Virus record (IMG/VR): IMGVR_UViG_3300010430_000137
Span: 1 to 42,623 of that record
DNA length: 42,623 nt
Direction: 5' to 3' (one strand)
Source: a virus
In this document: positions 31,172 to 38,875 of the stretch, in pieces
How positions within the stretch are numbered: position 1 is the stretch's first letter
Layout: each line of letters opens with the position of its first letter
Program-made: the position numbers and the translations under genes
The notes under the pieces: model-generated
Database searches by the model: none
The model's input: only the letters and a program-made list of their open reading frames with translations
Told to the model about the DNA's origin: nothing

Positions 31172-32737
31172 ATGAAATTAAGATATTATCAATCTGCAGC
31201 TATCAATGCAACGATGGCTTTCTTTCGATCTAAAGAGGTTGGGAACCCTCTTATCGAAATGCCTACTGCATCTGGTAAGTCGCATGTACTTGCAGGTATT
31301 GTACAGAAAGTACAGGATACATGGGGAGAAGTGCCCACATTAATATTATCTCATAATAAAGAAATACTTGAACAAGATTATCAAAAGCTTAGAATATACT
31401 TACCAGATAAAGTTATTGGTTTGTATTCATCTGGCTTAGGAATGAAAGAGATACAATCTATCACAGTTGCTGGTATTCAATCGGTGTTTCGTAAACCTAA
31501 GTTGTTTAAACACTTTAAACTTATCATAATTGATGAGTGTCATTTGATACCAGCAACTGGTGAAGGGATGTATCAATCTTTTCTAAAAGGTATAGGAAAA
31601 TATAAACTAGTCGGACTAACTGCGACTCCTTTTAGAACAGGTTTCGGTAGCCTTACTGATCCAGGTCATATATTCACGCGGACAATATATCGTATAGATA
31701 TTGAGACACTTATTAAACAAAAGTTCTTGTCTCCTTTAATATCCAAAGCAGCAGACTTTCAAATGGATCCATCTAAAGTTAAAGTTACTGCAGGTGATTA
31801 TGTTGTTAAACAATTAGGTATGGCATTTGATCAGAATACTATAACTAATAAAATTTGTAAGGAGCTTGTTAAATATGAAAAGATTAGGAAGAATTGGTTA
31901 CTCTTTGCTATCGATATTGCTCACGCCGAACACGTGGCGACTGAGCTTTCTACTTATGGTATCAAAGCTATGTATGTCCATAGCAACATGCCTATCGAAT
32001 TACGCGATGAAATTATCAGACTCTATCGAGAAGGAAGCATCAAAGCTCTCGTCAATGTCGCGGTATTAACTACTGGGTTTGACTATCCAGAAATAGATAT
32101 GATCGCGCTGCTTAGACCGACGCGGTCTCCTGTTCTTCATGTACAGATGATTGGACGTGGTTCTAGAATAGCACCTGGTAAGAAAGATTGTCTTGTACTT
32201 GATTTTGCTGGAAACTTACAAAGACTTGGTCCTGTAAATTCTAACTTTGATTTTAAAGTAGCAAAGGGAGGTGGAGAAGCACCTACAAAAGTATGCCCAG
32301 AATGTAATGAAGTATTGTATCTTTCTGCAAAAGAATGTCCTTGCGGGTATAAGTTTATTTCATCAAAAGTACCAGATCTTACAGTAACTGCGGCTACTAA
32401 CCAGGTTATTGCAAGTCATAAAATTTATAATGTTGAAAAAGTATACTATCATAGGCATAAAAAGAAAGGTAGTCCTGATTCTTTAAAAGTTACATATGTA
32501 TGTAAACCAATGCAAACTATTAAAGAGTGGGTACCTTTTGAACATCCTTTTGGTAGAAATCGTGCAATCAAATGGTGGGAGCAACATGGAGTTGGTCCTG
32601 TTCCTAAAACCGTAACAGAAGCTCTGGAGAAAATGAATGAGTTTATTAGACCCCGACAACTTAGAGTTGCCAAAGACGGAAAGTACCTTAAAATTATTGG
32701 AAAAGTTTTTAATCGATCCAAGAAAAGTGGTACTTGA
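31172..32737 (+). CDS. RadD-like SF2 helicase
   Basis: 521 aa. Motif I EMPTASGKSHVLAGI (about 28-42), motif II IIDECHLIPATG, motif III LVGLTATPFRTG, and motif VI MIGRGSRIAPGKKDC are all intact. The C-terminal zinc site is CPECNEVLYLSAKECPCGY. This is the RadD/DEAD-like ATPase organisation used in DNA repair and phage recombination. It would work with the upstream Cas4/Sak4 genes. The last 101 bp overlap the deaminase gene. Confidence 0.85.
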   Translation: MKLRYYQSAAINATMAFFRSKEVGNPLIEMPTASGKSHVLAGIVQKVQDTWGEVPTLILSHNKEILEQDYQKLRIYLPDKVIGLYSSGLGMKEIQSITVAGIQSVFRKPKLFKHFKLIIIDECHLIPATGEGMYQSFLKGIGKYKLVGLTATPFRTGFGSLTDPGHIFTRTIYRIDIETLIKQKFLSPLISKAADFQMDPSKVKVTAGDYVVKQLGMAFDQNTITNKICKELVKYEKIRKNWLLFAIDIAHAEHVATELSTYGIKAMYVHSNMPIELRDEIIRLYREGSIKALVNVAVLTTGFDYPEIDMIALLRPTRSPVLHVQMIGRGSRIAPGKKDCLVLDFAGNLQRLGPVNSNFDFKVAKGGGEAPTKVCPECNEVLYLSAKECPCGYKFISSKVPDLTVTAATNQVIASHKIYNVEKVYYHRHKKKGSPDSLKVTYVCKPMQTIKEWVPFEHPFGRNRAIKWWEQHGVGPVPKTVTEALEKMNEFIRPRQLRVAKDGKYLKIIGKVFNRSKKSGT

Positions 32738-33344
32738 AGAAGCAGAAAGATCTAAATGTATTAAACGTCGAGTAGGTGCTGTAGTTGTTGATAAAAATGA
32801 TAACATACTTAGCAAAGGTCATAACTATCGATTAACTGGTCCATGTGAAGATGATGATGGAAATACATTTGAAGATGTTAGACATGCTGAGAAAGTAGCT
32901 ATTGAATCGTTAACTGATGGACAAATTGCTCATAAAATTTATGTAACACATCCGCCTTGTACAGACTGTATGACTTTGATTGAGAACTATGGCCTAGAGC
33001 TTGAAATTATACAAGATTGTATTAAGTTTGATACTGGTAAACTGCGTTATGATCTTGTACCATCTGAAGCGTATAGAGGCATCGCAGAAGTAATGACATT
33101 TGGTGCTCGTAAATACAAACCTGGCAATTGGAGAACAGTTGATGATGTGCATAGGTTTATGGCAGCAGCTGAACGACACTACCAGGAATTCAAATATGTA
33201 ATGGAAACAGGAGATTGTACAAAACTATATGATGAAGAAACAAAACTGCATGTGTTAAAACATGTGTTGACAAATATTACATTTATTATGGAACTTGTTA
33301 GAGACGAACGAGCAGTGGAGGAATGGTATGAAAAACTATCTTGA
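32637..33344 (+). CDS. Fusion of dCMP-deaminase-like and DUF5664 (MazG-like) domains
   Basis: 235 aa from ATG 32637 with GGAG 7 bp upstream. N-terminal zinc-dependent deaminase: RRVGAVVVDKND, VRHAEKVAIES (H83-A-E85), and THPPCTDCM (C108, C111). C-terminal half, about 129-225, is a DUF5664-type all-alpha nucleotide pyrophosphohydrolase (KFDTGKLRYDLVPSEAYRGI, then FGARKYKPGNWRTVDD and the helices HRFMAAAERHYQEF). These act on deoxynucleotides; related MazZ/DUF5664 enzymes act on dATP/dGTP. It is joined to the thymidylate-synthase-like gene by a 17-bp overlap. Likely supplies or removes deoxycytidine nucleotides; exact substrate is not shown. Confidence 0.8.
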   Translation: MSLLDPDNLELPKTESTLKLLEKFLIDPRKVVLEEAERSKCIKRRVGAVVVDKNDNILSKGHNYRLTGPCEDDDGNTFEDVRHAEKVAIESLTDGQIAHKIYVTHPPCTDCMTLIENYGLELEIIQDCIKFDTGKLRYDLVPSEAYRGIAEVMTFGARKYKPGNWRTVDDVHRFMAAAERHYQEFKYVMETGDCTKLYDEETKLHVLKHVLTNITFIMELVRDERAVEEWYEKLS

Positions 33345-34128
33345 TTTGATTGCTAAAGTATTTGAAGAAGGTGAGTGGCACGAAACACGTAACTCACGTA
33401 CTTTAAGTATCTTTGGTGTAATGATGGAATGGGATTTACAACTAGGTTTTCCTATTCTTACTACTAAACAAATGAAACTCAAGAGTATTGCATCTGAGTT
33501 AGCATGGATACTTGAAGGTTCTAATGATGATAACAGACTCAAAGACTTAAATGGAACTAATCGCACTATATGGACTGACAACGCAGATACATATAAAGGA
33601 GATTTTCCAGGAGACGTCGGACAAATCTATGGTCCATTACTTCGCGGGTTTCATGGCGTAGATCAGTTATATAATATTGTAGATAAACTTAAGAATAACC
33701 CAACTGATCGCAGGATGCTTGTCAGTATGTGGGACCCGAGTGCAGCAAAGAAACAATGCCTTCCCACTTGTCATTATGCTTGGCAAGTATATGTCCGCGG
33801 GGGTGAGTACCTTGATCTTATGTGGCACCAACGGTCAGTAGATGTTGGACTTGGCTTGCCTTATGATATTGTACATTATGCAATGATGATTCATTTGCTT
33901 GCTAAGACAACTGGCTATCGTCCTGGTAAACTTAAATGTACATTAGGTGATACCCATATCTATGAGTCTCACATTGAGATGTTAACTTATCAAACTACAC
34001 GAGATCCTCTATCTTTGCCTAACTTATATTTAGATCCAGGAGCAGATATATGGCATTTTGAACCTAATGATGCTGGACTTATTAACTATCAACACCACTC
34101 ACCAATTAAACTGGAATTTATAGTATGA
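33328..34128 (+). CDS. Thymidylate synthase-family protein, probable dCMP (hydroxy)methylase
   Basis: 266 aa from ATG 33328 (GGAGG 6 bp upstream), close to the E. coli ThyA length. Invariant ThyA residues are visible: SRTLSIFG, ASELAWILEG (Glu), LPTCHYAWQ (catalytic Cys148), WHQRSVDVGLGLPYD, and GDTHIYESH. At the substrate-selecting position, where ThyA has Asn177 (LGLPFN), this protein has Asp180 (LGLPYD). In T4 dCMP hydroxymethylase and engineered ThyA, Asp at this place gives dCMP recognition. So the enzyme more likely makes 5-hydroxymethyl- or 5-methyl-dCMP than dTMP. Reaction type cannot be fixed from sequence. The upstream gene is the deaminase fusion. Confidence 0.82.
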   Translation: MKNYLDLIAKVFEEGEWHETRNSRTLSIFGVMMEWDLQLGFPILTTKQMKLKSIASELAWILEGSNDDNRLKDLNGTNRTIWTDNADTYKGDFPGDVGQIYGPLLRGFHGVDQLYNIVDKLKNNPTDRRMLVSMWDPSAAKKQCLPTCHYAWQVYVRGGEYLDLMWHQRSVDVGLGLPYDIVHYAMMIHLLAKTTGYRPGKLKCTLGDTHIYESHIEMLTYQTTRDPLSLPNLYLDPGADIWHFEPNDAGLINYQHHSPIKLEFIV

Positions 34129-34410: not shown

Positions 34411-35241
34411 ATGAAACTTAAAGCTCAAATGCAAAAAGCGAAAGTACTAACTATAGAGAATGGCATTCTCCAAGCCCAATATAATGGAGTATTATTTCAA
34501 GATTATGATGAAAGGTTTGCAAATATACAATTTGCGGGTAATGCTAAACAAATCTTTGAAGCAATGACTGTTCTTGATAAAGACTTTTATTGTAGCGGAG
34601 ATCATGCAACATTACTTATGACAGATGGTTTTCAAGAATTTAATATACAAGGTGAAGTACCAGATAAGATACTATATCTTTCAAATTACCATAAGACTTG
34701 GTCTCGTGGTAACACTATTAGTTTTTTTAAACTTCGTCCATTTGTTACACAAGACTACCCAGCATACTTTTGTACTAAAGAATATACAGAAGTCATACAT
34801 CCATCAATGATAGTTAGGGGTGCAAGTTACCATTTAAACGCAGTTTTAAATGTATGTGATTTAAGTAATCAACAAATAGATTGGATAGCACATCCAGATG
34901 GTCTTTGTATTACATTAGGTGATAATGCTAATGTATGCATGGGTTACCTTGATATAGAAAAACCTAACACCGATATATACTTTAAAAACTTTGCAAAAAC
35001 CAATCCAATACCTCAAGTAATAAAAAATAGATGGGTTCCATGTGAATGGGCTGAGTTTACACCTGATGGTTTACTATTAGATGAACGAGTACTTATTGAA
35101 GAAGTTAAAGGTTATGGTAAATATGATGGCAAGTTACTTGCTAAAGTAATTAAGAATTGTACTCATTGGGAAATGGATACAGAACTTATGTACTTTAAAA
35201 ATGATTGGATTACAGGAGTTCTTGAAAATGTTAAACATTGA
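34411..35241 (+). CDS. Unknown beta-rich protein upstream of DNA polymerase
   Basis: 276 aa. No recognised family. Beta-rich, with few charged clusters: KVLTIENGILQAQYNGVLFQ, FEAMTVLDKDFYCSGDHATL, LNAVLNVCDLSNQQIDWIAH. It overlaps the polymerase gene by 14 bp, which suggests a linked function, possibly a processivity or clamp-like factor or a polymerase accessory. That is only position-based. No enzymatic motif. Confidence 0.55.
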   Translation: MKLKAQMQKAKVLTIENGILQAQYNGVLFQDYDERFANIQFAGNAKQIFEAMTVLDKDFYCSGDHATLLMTDGFQEFNIQGEVPDKILYLSNYHKTWSRGNTISFFKLRPFVTQDYPAYFCTKEYTEVIHPSMIVRGASYHLNAVLNVCDLSNQQIDWIAHPDGLCITLGDNANVCMGYLDIEKPNTDIYFKNFAKTNPIPQVIKNRWVPCEWAEFTPDGLLLDERVLIEEVKGYGKYDGKLLAKVIKNCTHWEMDTELMYFKNDWITGVLENVKH

Positions 35242-37171
35242 AAGCTTTAAACAACAACGACGTAATCATAAGATTATACTTCCGCAAGTATCTAGTAATT
35301 GGACACCTCCTAAAGAATTACCTAACTTGTCAGGAGCAACTCGTCTAGCTATTGATACTGAAACATATGATCCTGAGCTTCTTGAGGCAGGACCAGGATG
35401 GGCACGCGATAGAGGACATATTGTAGGAGTGTCACTCGCGACTGAGGATACTGCTTGGTACTTTCCACTACGGCATGAACTTGATCGCGAAATGAATATG
35501 GATCCAATTCAAGTATTCGCTTGGTTGAATGAAGTACTAGGTACTAACATTGATAAAATATTCGCGAATGCTTCTTATGATATTGGTTGGCTTAATCAAG
35601 AAGGTGTAAATATACGAGGTAAATGTTATGATGTCCAAGCGGCAGAAGCTCTTATTGATGGTAATAAATTTACTTATTCATTGGAATCGCTTGCTCAACA
35701 ATACCTTGATGAGGGCAAAGAGTCGAATGAACTCTACAAATGGTGTGCCCGTGCATATGGCGGTAAAGATAATGGGAAGCAAAGAGCGAATATATATCGT
35801 GCCCCAGTGTCCCTTGTCGGAGCGTATGCAGAATCAGATGCAAGACTCCCTTACGCAATCTTCGAACAACAATGGAAAATAATGGAACGTGATGGATTAC
35901 TTCGTGTCTTTGATTTAGAGACACGTATACTACCAATGCTTATAGCAATGAGAAAACGAGGCGTAAATATAAATGAAGAAGCACTACTTGTGGCCAGAGA
36001 TTCATTGGCACAACAGATTAACGACTTACGTAGTAAACTTGATAGCGCTGTTGGCTTTAATGTCAACGTTAACAGTTCTAATGACCTTGCTGTACTTTGC
36101 CGTAAATTTGATATACCCTATGAAGTAACATCAAAAGGTAATCCAAGCTTTCAAGCAGTGTGGCTAGAACGTCAGCCATATGAAATCTTACATTGGGTAC
36201 GAGAGATTCGCAAGTTATCCAAAACTGTCTCTACATTCATAGATGGTCTTCAATCAAAGAATATAGATGGGAGGATTCATGGACAATTTAACGCTCTTCG
36301 CTCTGGTGGCGCTGGTACTATTACTGGGCGGTTTAGCAGCAGTAGTCCTAACCTCCAGAATATACCCTCACGCGATCCCATTCTTGGTCCTCTCATGCGT
36401 AGTATCTTTATACCTGATGATTATTATCCTAATTGGTGTAAATTAGATTATAGCAGTATCGAGTTTAGATGCTTTGCACACAGGGCAGCAAGTCCTGAGT
36501 TACTCGAAGCTTATAAGAATGATCCAAAGACTGACTTTCATGCAGTTGTCGAAAAGATGGTAGGAGGCAACTTACCTCGTGTGGCATATAAAACATTTAA
36601 CTTCAGTCGAATGTATGGTGGTGGCATTAATACTATTACTACTCAGATGTTAAGATCATTTGATGATGCAGAACGTACTGAACTTATTAAGAACATGGGA
36701 TTCATACCGTTAACTAATACTGCGGAACAATTAGCCCGTATTCTTATGACTCGTTATGATGAACGATTTACAATGGTTACTGATCAGTTAAATGCTGAGA
36801 TGGAACTTGCAGAGATGACAGGTGAAACCCGTACTGAGCTTGGTCGCCGAATTACATTTAATGAACGTACTATCTCAAAGAATGGTCAAAGATACCACGG
36901 ATCCTATAAAGCTTTGAACTATTATAACCAGGGCACAGCCGCGGATATAATGAAGAGTGGAATGGTACTTGCTTGGGAGGACGGTTTGTTTAATGAAGAA
37001 CGGTTAGGAGCGCCTCATCTAACAGTACATGATGAACTTGATTTAAGTTATCATCCAGACATGGAAGGAGATATCAAAGACCTTAAGTTTATTATGGAAC
37101 AAGCAGTTCAATTAAATGTTCCTATTGTAGTAGATGAAGAATATGGCACAAATTGGGGAGACGTAAAATAG
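35228..37171 (+). CDS. Family A DNA polymerase with 3'-5' exonuclease
   Basis: 647 aa from ATG 35228 (GGAG 9 bp upstream). Exo I LAIDTET, exo II FANASYDIGWL, exo III YAESDARLPY are intact. Polymerase motif A is CKLDYSSIEFRCFAH, motif B RVAYKTFNFSRMYGGG, motif C TVHDELDLSYH, all with the expected catalytic Asp residues. Motif B has Phe at the position that excludes dideoxynucleotides, as in E. coli Pol I. No 5' nuclease domain. Replicative polymerase of the phage, working with the primase-helicase and the Sak4 cassette. Confidence 0.92.
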   Translation: MLNIESFKQQRRNHKIILPQVSSNWTPPKELPNLSGATRLAIDTETYDPELLEAGPGWARDRGHIVGVSLATEDTAWYFPLRHELDREMNMDPIQVFAWLNEVLGTNIDKIFANASYDIGWLNQEGVNIRGKCYDVQAAEALIDGNKFTYSLESLAQQYLDEGKESNELYKWCARAYGGKDNGKQRANIYRAPVSLVGAYAESDARLPYAIFEQQWKIMERDGLLRVFDLETRILPMLIAMRKRGVNINEEALLVARDSLAQQINDLRSKLDSAVGFNVNVNSSNDLAVLCRKFDIPYEVTSKGNPSFQAVWLERQPYEILHWVREIRKLSKTVSTFIDGLQSKNIDGRIHGQFNALRSGGAGTITGRFSSSSPNLQNIPSRDPILGPLMRSIFIPDDYYPNWCKLDYSSIEFRCFAHRAASPELLEAYKNDPKTDFHAVVEKMVGGNLPRVAYKTFNFSRMYGGGINTITTQMLRSFDDAERTELIKNMGFIPLTNTAEQLARILMTRYDERFTMVTDQLNAEMELAEMTGETRTELGRRITFNERTISKNGQRYHGSYKALNYYNQGTAADIMKSGMVLAWEDGLFNEERLGAPHLTVHDELDLSYHPDMEGDIKDLKFIMEQAVQLNVPIVVDEEYGTNWGDVK

Positions 37172-37316: not shown

Positions 37317-37832
37317 TTGAATAATTATAAAGAATGGGTATTAGGTATTGATCCAGGTGTTCACGGAGCACTTTCATTAATCGAACCAGTATCGCGTACT
37401 ATTATTAATATCTGGGATATGCCTAATTATAGTGAAGTACTTACTACAGGTAAGAAAAGAGTAAGTATTGACGTTGATAAACTAGGTGAAATCTTTAAAA
37501 CTATGGGGTTTGCAGCAGCAGGAGATGATGTACAGATAAGAGTTCAGATCGAAAAAGTACAAGCATATGGAAAACAAAGTGCTCCTGCTGCATTTAACTT
37601 TGGATACGCGGCTGCAATACCATACATATACTGTAAAATACTAGAGTGGCCAGTTACATTTATTAGTGCAGTATCATGGAAGAAACAGTTTGGCATTACA
37701 GCAACAAAGAAAGATGCTGCTAGGTTGCTTGTTATCCAATACTTTCCTAATCACCGCGACTACTTTACACGTAAGATGGATGTAGATCGTGCTGATGCAA
37801 CATTAATCGCAATGTATAGAGGTGCTAAATGA
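37317..37832 (+). CDS. RuvC-like Holliday junction resolvase
   Basis: 171 aa, TTG start at 37317 chosen for AGGAG 6 bp upstream; the nearby ATG is out of frame. RuvC/RNase H-fold signature: VLGIDPGVHGALSLI, IEKVQAYGKQS, KKDAARLLVIQYFPNHR and DRADATLIAMY at the end, giving the usual Asp-Glu-Asp-Asp site. Resolves branched DNA for packaging and recombination. Its stop overlaps the ligase start by 4 bp. Confidence 0.82.
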   Translation: MNNYKEWVLGIDPGVHGALSLIEPVSRTIINIWDMPNYSEVLTTGKKRVSIDVDKLGEIFKTMGFAAAGDDVQIRVQIEKVQAYGKQSAPAAFNFGYAAAIPYIYCKILEWPVTFISAVSWKKQFGITATKKDAARLLVIQYFPNHRDYFTRKMDVDRADATLIAMYRGAK

Positions 37833-38875
37833 GTCTTCTTGATTTACCAGCTACTACGCTTTACAAGCAAGGTGCTTCACATATCCAAGAGTGGTCTATT
37901 TATGTGTTAGAAGAAACAATCTATATTGAACATGGAGTATTACATGGCAAAAAACAGATCAAGACTGAAACAGTACCTCGTGGTAAAGCTGGACGCTCTA
38001 TGCACCAACAAATTACTTCGCGGGTTAATAGTCGTATTAATAAGCAAAAGCTGCAAGGTTACAAAGATACAATCGAAGAGGCAAAAGAAGGCCCGAGTAA
38101 CGCATTAGGTTTAATTCAGCCTATGCTAGCACAACCTTTGAATAAAGTAAAAGTTGATATAAGTGAAGCATGGGTTCAATACAAGTATGATGGAAATCGT
38201 TGTCTAATTACAAAACAAAACGGTAGGAATATAGCATATTCTCGCCGCGGGAAAGTAATAGATACTATTGGGCATATTACTGATGCTATTAGATTAAATG
38301 AGGGAGAGACAATTGATGGAGAGCTCTATGCCCATGGAGCAACACTTCAAGAGATTGTAAGCTGGGTACGTAGAGACCAACCTGGTACAAGGCGTGTGCA
38401 GTTTCATGCGTATGACTATGTAAGTAATATCCCATATTCAGGACGACTACTGCAACTAAGATCACTTACAATGGGAAGTAATAGTCAGATTGTTCCTACT
38501 AAGCATATGTCTCAAATCAAAAGCCTAGACACTCATTTTGGTGAAGCAAGAGAATTAGGATATGAGGGACTTATACTTCGTGTAGGTAATGCTGGGTATG
38601 AGATGAACAAGCGTAGTAAGTCATTACTTAAAGTTAAAAAGTTTTTAGATGCAGAGTTTAAAGTATATGATATACAGATGTCAGAAAAAGAAGTACCAGT
38701 CGTAGATTGTGGTCATTTCAAAGTAACAGCTCCTGGTAGTTTTGAAGAGAAGCAACGAATCTTTGAGAATAAAGATGACTATATTGGACAATGGCTAACA
38801 GTTGAGTTTAGTGGATTCACTGCAGATGGTATTCCATTTCATCCAGTAGCACTTAGGTTTAGGAGAGATATATAA
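37829..38875 (+). CDS. ATP-dependent DNA ligase with N-terminal WGR-like region
   Basis: 348 aa. Nucleotidyltransferase motif I is QYKYDGNRCLI (Lys), with GETIDGELYAHG (motif III) and EGLILRVGNAGYEMNKRS (motif IV) and SLLKVKKF (motif V). N-terminal HIQEWSIYVLEETIYIEHGV then GKAGRSMHQQITSRVNSRI is a WGR-like unit seen in phage ligases. Seals nicks after replication. It overlaps RuvC by 4 bp and the next gene by one. Confidence 0.88.
   Translation: MSLLDLPATTLYKQGASHIQEWSIYVLEETIYIEHGVLHGKKQIKTETVPRGKAGRSMHQQITSRVNSRINKQKLQGYKDTIEEAKEGPSNALGLIQPMLAQPLNKVKVDISEAWVQYKYDGNRCLITKQNGRNIAYSRRGKVIDTIGHITDAIRLNEGETIDGELYAHGATLQEIVSWVRRDQPGTRRVQFHAYDYVSNIPYSGRLLQLRSLTMGSNSQIVPTKHMSQIKSLDTHFGEARELGYEGLILRVGNAGYEMNKRSKSLLKVKKFLDAEFKVYDIQMSEKEVPVVDCGHFKVTAPGSFEEKQRIFENKDDYIGQWLTVEFSGFTADGIPFHPVALRFRRDI

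Follow-up and report, generated by a model that had tools for sequence, protein, structure and literature searches.

A relative of thymidylate synthase that probably acts on cytosine nucleotides

A phage can do without ordinary cytosine altogether: in the DNA of Xp12, 5-methylcytosine replaces all of it (PMC7653180, PMC9206674). Enzymes of the thymidylate synthase (TS) fold are known to be diverted from dUMP by the change of a single residue, N177D in the E. coli enzyme and N229D in that of L. casei, both of which become dCMP methylases (Hardy and Nalivaika, and Liu and Santi, as cited in PMC8670742). Asp177 is enriched among contigs with modified cytosine, and position 147 is altered in such contigs as well (PMC8670742). 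The hydroxymethylases carry a signature of their own: at the third position ahead of the catalytic Cys they have Asp or Glu, at the second position ahead of the active-site Tyr they have Ser or Thr, and the C-terminal tail is missing (PMC6400193). In the CMP hydroxymethylases of the MilA type, Lys and Ala replace Arg126 and Ser167 (PMC5175136). Finally, among the T4-like phages, the DNA of VR7 is described as unglycosylated with modified cytosines and that of VR5 as glycosylated, in the account given by PMC6326788, whose main text does not specify the chemistry of the VR7 modification.

An aspartate in an otherwise complete active site

The window considered here is the whole of an IMG/VR virus record derived from environmental DNA, IMGVR_UViG_3300010430_000137, 42,623 bp in length and free of end repeats, with a structural half on the minus strand and a replication half on the plus strand. 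Within the latter lies the gene of interest (Table 1), whose ATG has GGAGG a short way upstream and whose start overlaps the preceding gene by 17 nt. Its translation is covered from end to end by the TS profile, and a profile search of the entire record gave no other match to that family.

Table 1. Positions of the TS-family gene, its diagnostic codons and its neighbors in the window
Feature	Position	Strand	Basis
TS-family gene, predicted dCMP C5-methylase, 266 aa	33328..34128	+	PF00303 1.6e-76, phrog_160 4.5e-90, alignment
L145-P-T-C148-H149 codons: catalytic Cys, TS-type Leu at -3, His at +1	33760..33774	+	alignment
GAT codon, Asp180 (E. coli Asn177), pyrimidine-selecting residue	33865..33867	+	alignment
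TS-type C-terminal tail PIKLEFIV, missing from T4 gp42	34102..34125	+	alignment; tail role per PMC6400193
Fusion gene, dCMP-type deaminase and PF18909	32637..33344	+	PF00383 7.6e-14, PF18909 3.6e-21
Deaminase domain of the fusion	32727..32996	+	PF00383, residues 31-120
PF18909 domain of the fusion	33024..33305	+	PF18909, residues 130-223
Family A DNA polymerase, same module	35201..37171	+	PF00476 1.1e-59
ATP-dependent DNA ligase, same replication module	37829..38875	+	phrog_114 4.4e-64

The preliminary description of this DNA had placed an Asp at the site of Asn177 amid intact TS motifs, and alignment with T4 gp42 and with reference ThyA from E. coli MG1655 confirms it. The catalytic Cys, Arg and Asp residues of the superfamily are present. 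In ThyA numbering, the protein retains R21, E58, W80, Y94, R126, R127, L143, C146, H147, Q165, R166, S167, D169, G173, P175, H207 and Y209, and Phe176 has become Tyr. An enzyme specific for dUMP requires Asn177; Asp at this position is the mark of a dCMP methylase of the TS type. The presence of Arg126 and Ser167 sets the protein apart from the MilA type. I consider it likely that the gene encodes a TS-fold methylase specific for dCMP.

Could Asp180 be a recent single-base accident or an error of assembly? The same Asp codon occurs in IMGVR 3300005590_000313, identical over 5,882 bp and so perhaps not an independent sample; exact peptide seeds from the window's proteins found no close relative among viral contigs besides this 5.9-kb one. 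Either is unlikely all the same, because the relatives that share its partner gene have Asp177 too.

Methyl or hydroxymethyl

The preliminary description had left room for a hydroxymethylase, a reading that draws on the coincidence of Asp180 with Asp179 of T4 gp42. The resemblance does not extend further. At the positions of TS Leu and His, gp42 has Asp and Thr. The protein of the window has Leu145 where T4 has Asp145, Gln where T4 has Ser94, two residues before Tyr96, and the full TS tail that gp42 lacks. No match in the window was found with T4 gp42 as the query. It had also been remarked that no hydroxymethyl-dCMP kinase or glucosyltransferase was obvious, and searches of the window with Pfam, PHROGs and NCBIfam profiles bear this out, finding no kinase, glycosyltransferase, carbamoyltransferase or ThyX. 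On the residues and the tail I reject the hydroxymethylase half of the earlier reading; it is very improbable that a gp42-like enzyme here provides 5-hydroxymethylcytosine for the DNA. The TS-type Leu and tail, together with the Gln, point to a reaction finished by hydride transfer, with 5-methyl-dCMP as the predicted product. The comparison distinguishes enzymes of the two kinds by sequence.

The company kept by Asp177

The choice of dCMP over dUMP, already suspected in the preliminary description, is well supported by residue 177 and by the genes that accompany Asp177 in cultured phages. In AXL1, which is related to Xp12, the only PF00303 protein carries Asp177 and is encoded between the genes for a deaminase and a pyrophosphohydrolase, in an operon that also includes dihydrofolate reductase (DHFR). 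The fusion of a deaminase with PF18909, at a coverage of at least 80%, is found in three distinct cultured lineages of podoviruses, KF-1, Amaethon and PH1. In each, an Asp177 TS and PolA belong to the same cassette and a ligase follows it, an architecture that matches the window more closely than any other.

The T4-like phages provide a different kind of evidence. Asp177 in td goes with the absence of gp42 in all six Gaprivervirus genomes compared (VR7, SP18, ECML-359, VR20, VR25 and VR26), while Asn177 goes with a gp42 homologue in the six others (T4, its residue taken from chain 1tis, and S16, myPSH1140, Pet-CM3-4, ECp13 and VR5). The homologue in VR5 is distant (24% identity), yet it has Asp177 and Glu143. 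Fisher's test over the twelve gives p = 0.002, a value that overstates the case since the Gaprivervirus records are close kin and represent one evolutionary event rather than six. SP18 and ECML-359, relatives of VR7, retain a dCTPase of the T4 type. Considering that VR7 combines an Asp177 td and no gp42 with reported cytosine modification, I propose its td as a candidate gene behind that modification. Apart from the report on VR7, I found nothing in the open literature on a known modification in KF-1 or Gaprivervirus, nor any measured modified nucleoside for the present virus, KF-1, Amaethon or PH1.

How common is Asp177? Eighty viral TS proteins were retrieved by their N-terminal halves only, and residue 177 proved to be Asn in 76, Asp in three (VR26, a marine contig and the contig of this virus itself) and truncated in one, a sample tilted towards ordinary TS because most of the seeds came from ordinary enzymes. 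A scan for the Asp177 pattern brought out 73 viral contigs, mostly from one marine clade. The members of that clade, about 40 contigs or more, have Tyr79, Leu262 and a recurrent neighbor that looks MazG-like, and in the records searched they have neither a PF00383 deaminase nor ThyX. Judged by sequence, a related Asp177 TS in two viral contigs (L045 and L049) seems to carry a DHFR-like domain fused at its N-terminus, which fits a reaction that yields dihydrofolate.

In the best tree computed from an alignment stripped of column 177, no more than two switches between Asn and Asp are required, of which one falls inside Gaprivervirus, and the protein of the window groups with those of KF-1, Amaethon and PH1 (SH-aLRT 80). 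This agrees with descent of the window's enzyme from an Asp177 ancestor, although the AU test is also compatible with a place beside the Asn177 clade (p = 0.56, the window's branch being long and other long rows having been removed).

The neighborhood

The gene overlapping the TS homologue was described earlier as a dCMP-related fusion. That much is real. Its deaminase domain has intact zinc motifs (HAE and PCxxC) and is joined to PF18909, the N-terminal family of dATP/dGTP diphosphohydrolases; the AlphaFold model of the whole is poor (pLDDT 37). Probably the fusion acts on the same nucleotide pool as the TS homologue. Its value as support cuts both ways, since 5-methyl-dCMP might be a substrate of the deaminase and so become dTMP.

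The replication module further comprises a primase, Sak4-like and Cas4-like proteins, a helicase, PolA, a resolvase and the ligase; no DHFR gene was found in the window. Between the TS homologue and PolA is a protein of 276 aa (34411-35241) for which neither Pfam nor PHROGs nor NCBIfam gave a match. The best NCBIfam model for PolA is DpoZ_1, a polymerase that incorporates aminoadenine, with a score of 314 bits where the cut-off is 500. The pairing of PF18909 with such a polymerase might bring to mind a genome containing 2-aminoadenine, an idea I set aside: the score falls short of the cut-off, and no PurZ-like gene was recognised among the large open reading frames.

Thymidylate in Uhrbacteria

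There are cellular Asp177 enzymes as well. A pattern scan of bacterial genomes found them in three Uhrbacteria MAGs and in two contigs of one Rickettsiales MAG. The latter has ThyX besides, and its TS resembles that of the marine viral clade. In the three Uhrbacteria, the TS is the sole PF00303 protein, ThyX is absent and the TS gene belongs to an overlapping operon with genes for a DHFR/RibD_C-like protein and a deaminase. Asp177 is found in every aligned TS from the group (these three and 27 more, 30 of 30), and the further 27 have Asn143 and Pro147, as AXL1 does. Among 43 genomes of one Uhrbacteria family, TS is present in 36 and missing from seven. ThyX occurs in five of the seven and in none of the 36 (Fisher p = 2.2e-5, to be taken as a guide only, because the MAGs are related and their completeness is unstated). 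By a count made by hand, 28 of the 36 have a PF00383 deaminase downstream of TS, with contig and strand in common and no more than about 7 kb away. Most simply read, the Asp177 TS stands in for ThyX and hence makes dTMP, whether through methylation of dCMP followed by deamination or through an activity on dUMP that was kept or regained.

The fate of 5-methyl-dCMP

The residues are observed, as are the gene cluster and the fact that it recurs; substrate, product and fate I infer from them as follows. Asp180 would pair with the cytosine ring and protonate it, and Cys148 would attack C6. The one-carbon unit would come from methylene-tetrahydrofolate, and a final hydride transfer of the TS kind, in place of the addition of water by which T4 gp42 works, would give 5-methyl-dCMP and dihydrofolate. 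The upstream fusion, with its pyrophosphohydrolase-type and dCMP-type deaminase domains, probably acts on this pool. 5-Methyl-dCTP would enter viral DNA in place of some or all of the cytosine and block restriction, as in Xp12, provided that the family A polymerase accepts the modified nucleotide. The presence of 5-methylcytosine in the DNA is the leading fate, still unproven, and the chance that the gene is a dCMP methylase whose product ends there seems to me about even. Speaking for it are Asp177 within an otherwise complete TS site, the patterns seen in AXL1, in the T4-like phages and in KF-1, Amaethon and PH1, and the reported modified cytosine of VR7. On the other side, no kinase for 5-methyl-dCMP is visible in the window (though hosts might provide it), dCMP or 5-methyl-dCMP might be lost to the deaminase next door, the Uhrbacteria enzyme looks like a maker of thymidylate, and His147 is kept here, at a position that differs in AXL1 (Pro) and in the modified contigs of PMC8670742.

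The Uhrbacteria suggest another fate. 5-Methyl-dCMP would be made as before, but the deaminase would turn it into dTMP, so that dTTP is reached without passing through dUMP and the cytosine of the virion is left unmodified. The dCMP deaminases of human and T4 can act on 5-methyl-dCMP, and in the window, as in KF-1, Amaethon, PH1 and AXL1, a deaminase adjoins or nearly adjoins the Asp177 TS. The constancy of Asp177 in Uhrbacteria, the exclusion of ThyX and the linkage to a deaminase argue in the same direction. However, the same enzymes are present in phages of the Xp12 type, and since Xp12 has 5-methylcytosine in place of all its cytosine (PMC7653180, PMC9206674), modified DNA can go with such a cassette. 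The phage VR7, whose td has Asp177, has modified cytosine by the account of PMC6326788, and the marine clade has its Asp177 TS in about 40 contigs without a PF00383 deaminase. I found no such route to dTMP in the open literature. For this virus I regard it as a minority reading. The broader idea, that an Asp177 TS with a linked deaminase forms an unrecognised thymidylate route, the sole source of dTMP in Uhrbacteria and carried also by this virus and its relatives, is offered just as tentatively. The two fates can coexist. It is less likely again that compensating changes have preserved the use of dUMP, supplied from dCMP by the deaminase in the classical way. The retention of His147 and of every other TS residue checked is what such an enzyme would display, the AU test does not reject a place beside the Asn177 clade, and the proteins of KF-1, PH1 and VR7 are annotated simply as thymidylate synthase. 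Nonetheless, 76 of the 79 viral TS proteins readable at the position have Asn177, Asp177 has been kept across very divergent lineages with two changes on the tree, and its appearance in T4-like phages is accompanied by the loss of gp42. An ordinary TS is therefore improbable.

Comparison with known systems

The genes behind modified cytosine are open to direct testing in cultured phages, namely VR7, SP18, KF-1, PH1 and Amaethon. If the pattern in Uhrbacteria is what it appears to be, then there is a third cellular route to thymidylate beside ThyA and ThyX.

The known system that invites comparison first is that of Xp12, judged here through the genome of its relative AXL1 (Bosa and DLP4 are others) and not through its own. 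AXL1 likewise has an Asp177 TS as its sole PF00303 protein, together with a dCMP deaminase and a pyrophosphohydrolase. The two TS proteins are 29% identical, AXL1 has Asn143 and Pro147, and its DHFR gene has no counterpart found in the window. T4 gp42 shares with the window's enzyme the TS fold and the Asp at 177; the hydroxymethylation residues belong to gp42 only, and the TS tail only to the enzyme of the window. With E. coli ThyA N177D and L. casei TS N229D the likeness lies in a full TS site in which Asn has become Asp, but the present enzyme is natural, is part of a phage operon and is 38% identical to ThyA. The td proteins of Gaprivervirus (VR7, SP18) also have Asp177 in a TS-type site and are the closest cultured BLAST matches, at 41%; by the tree, their switch from Asn took place independently, inside the T4-like phages, and no deaminase is linked to them. 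KF-1, Amaethon and PH1 resemble the window in placing an Asp177 TS near a deaminase-PF18909 fusion, PolA and ligase. Their TS proteins are 31-36% identical to that of the window, and residue 176 is Ser or Ala in them. Between the two genes stands one for a separate pyrophosphohydrolase, and the order of the genes is the opposite.
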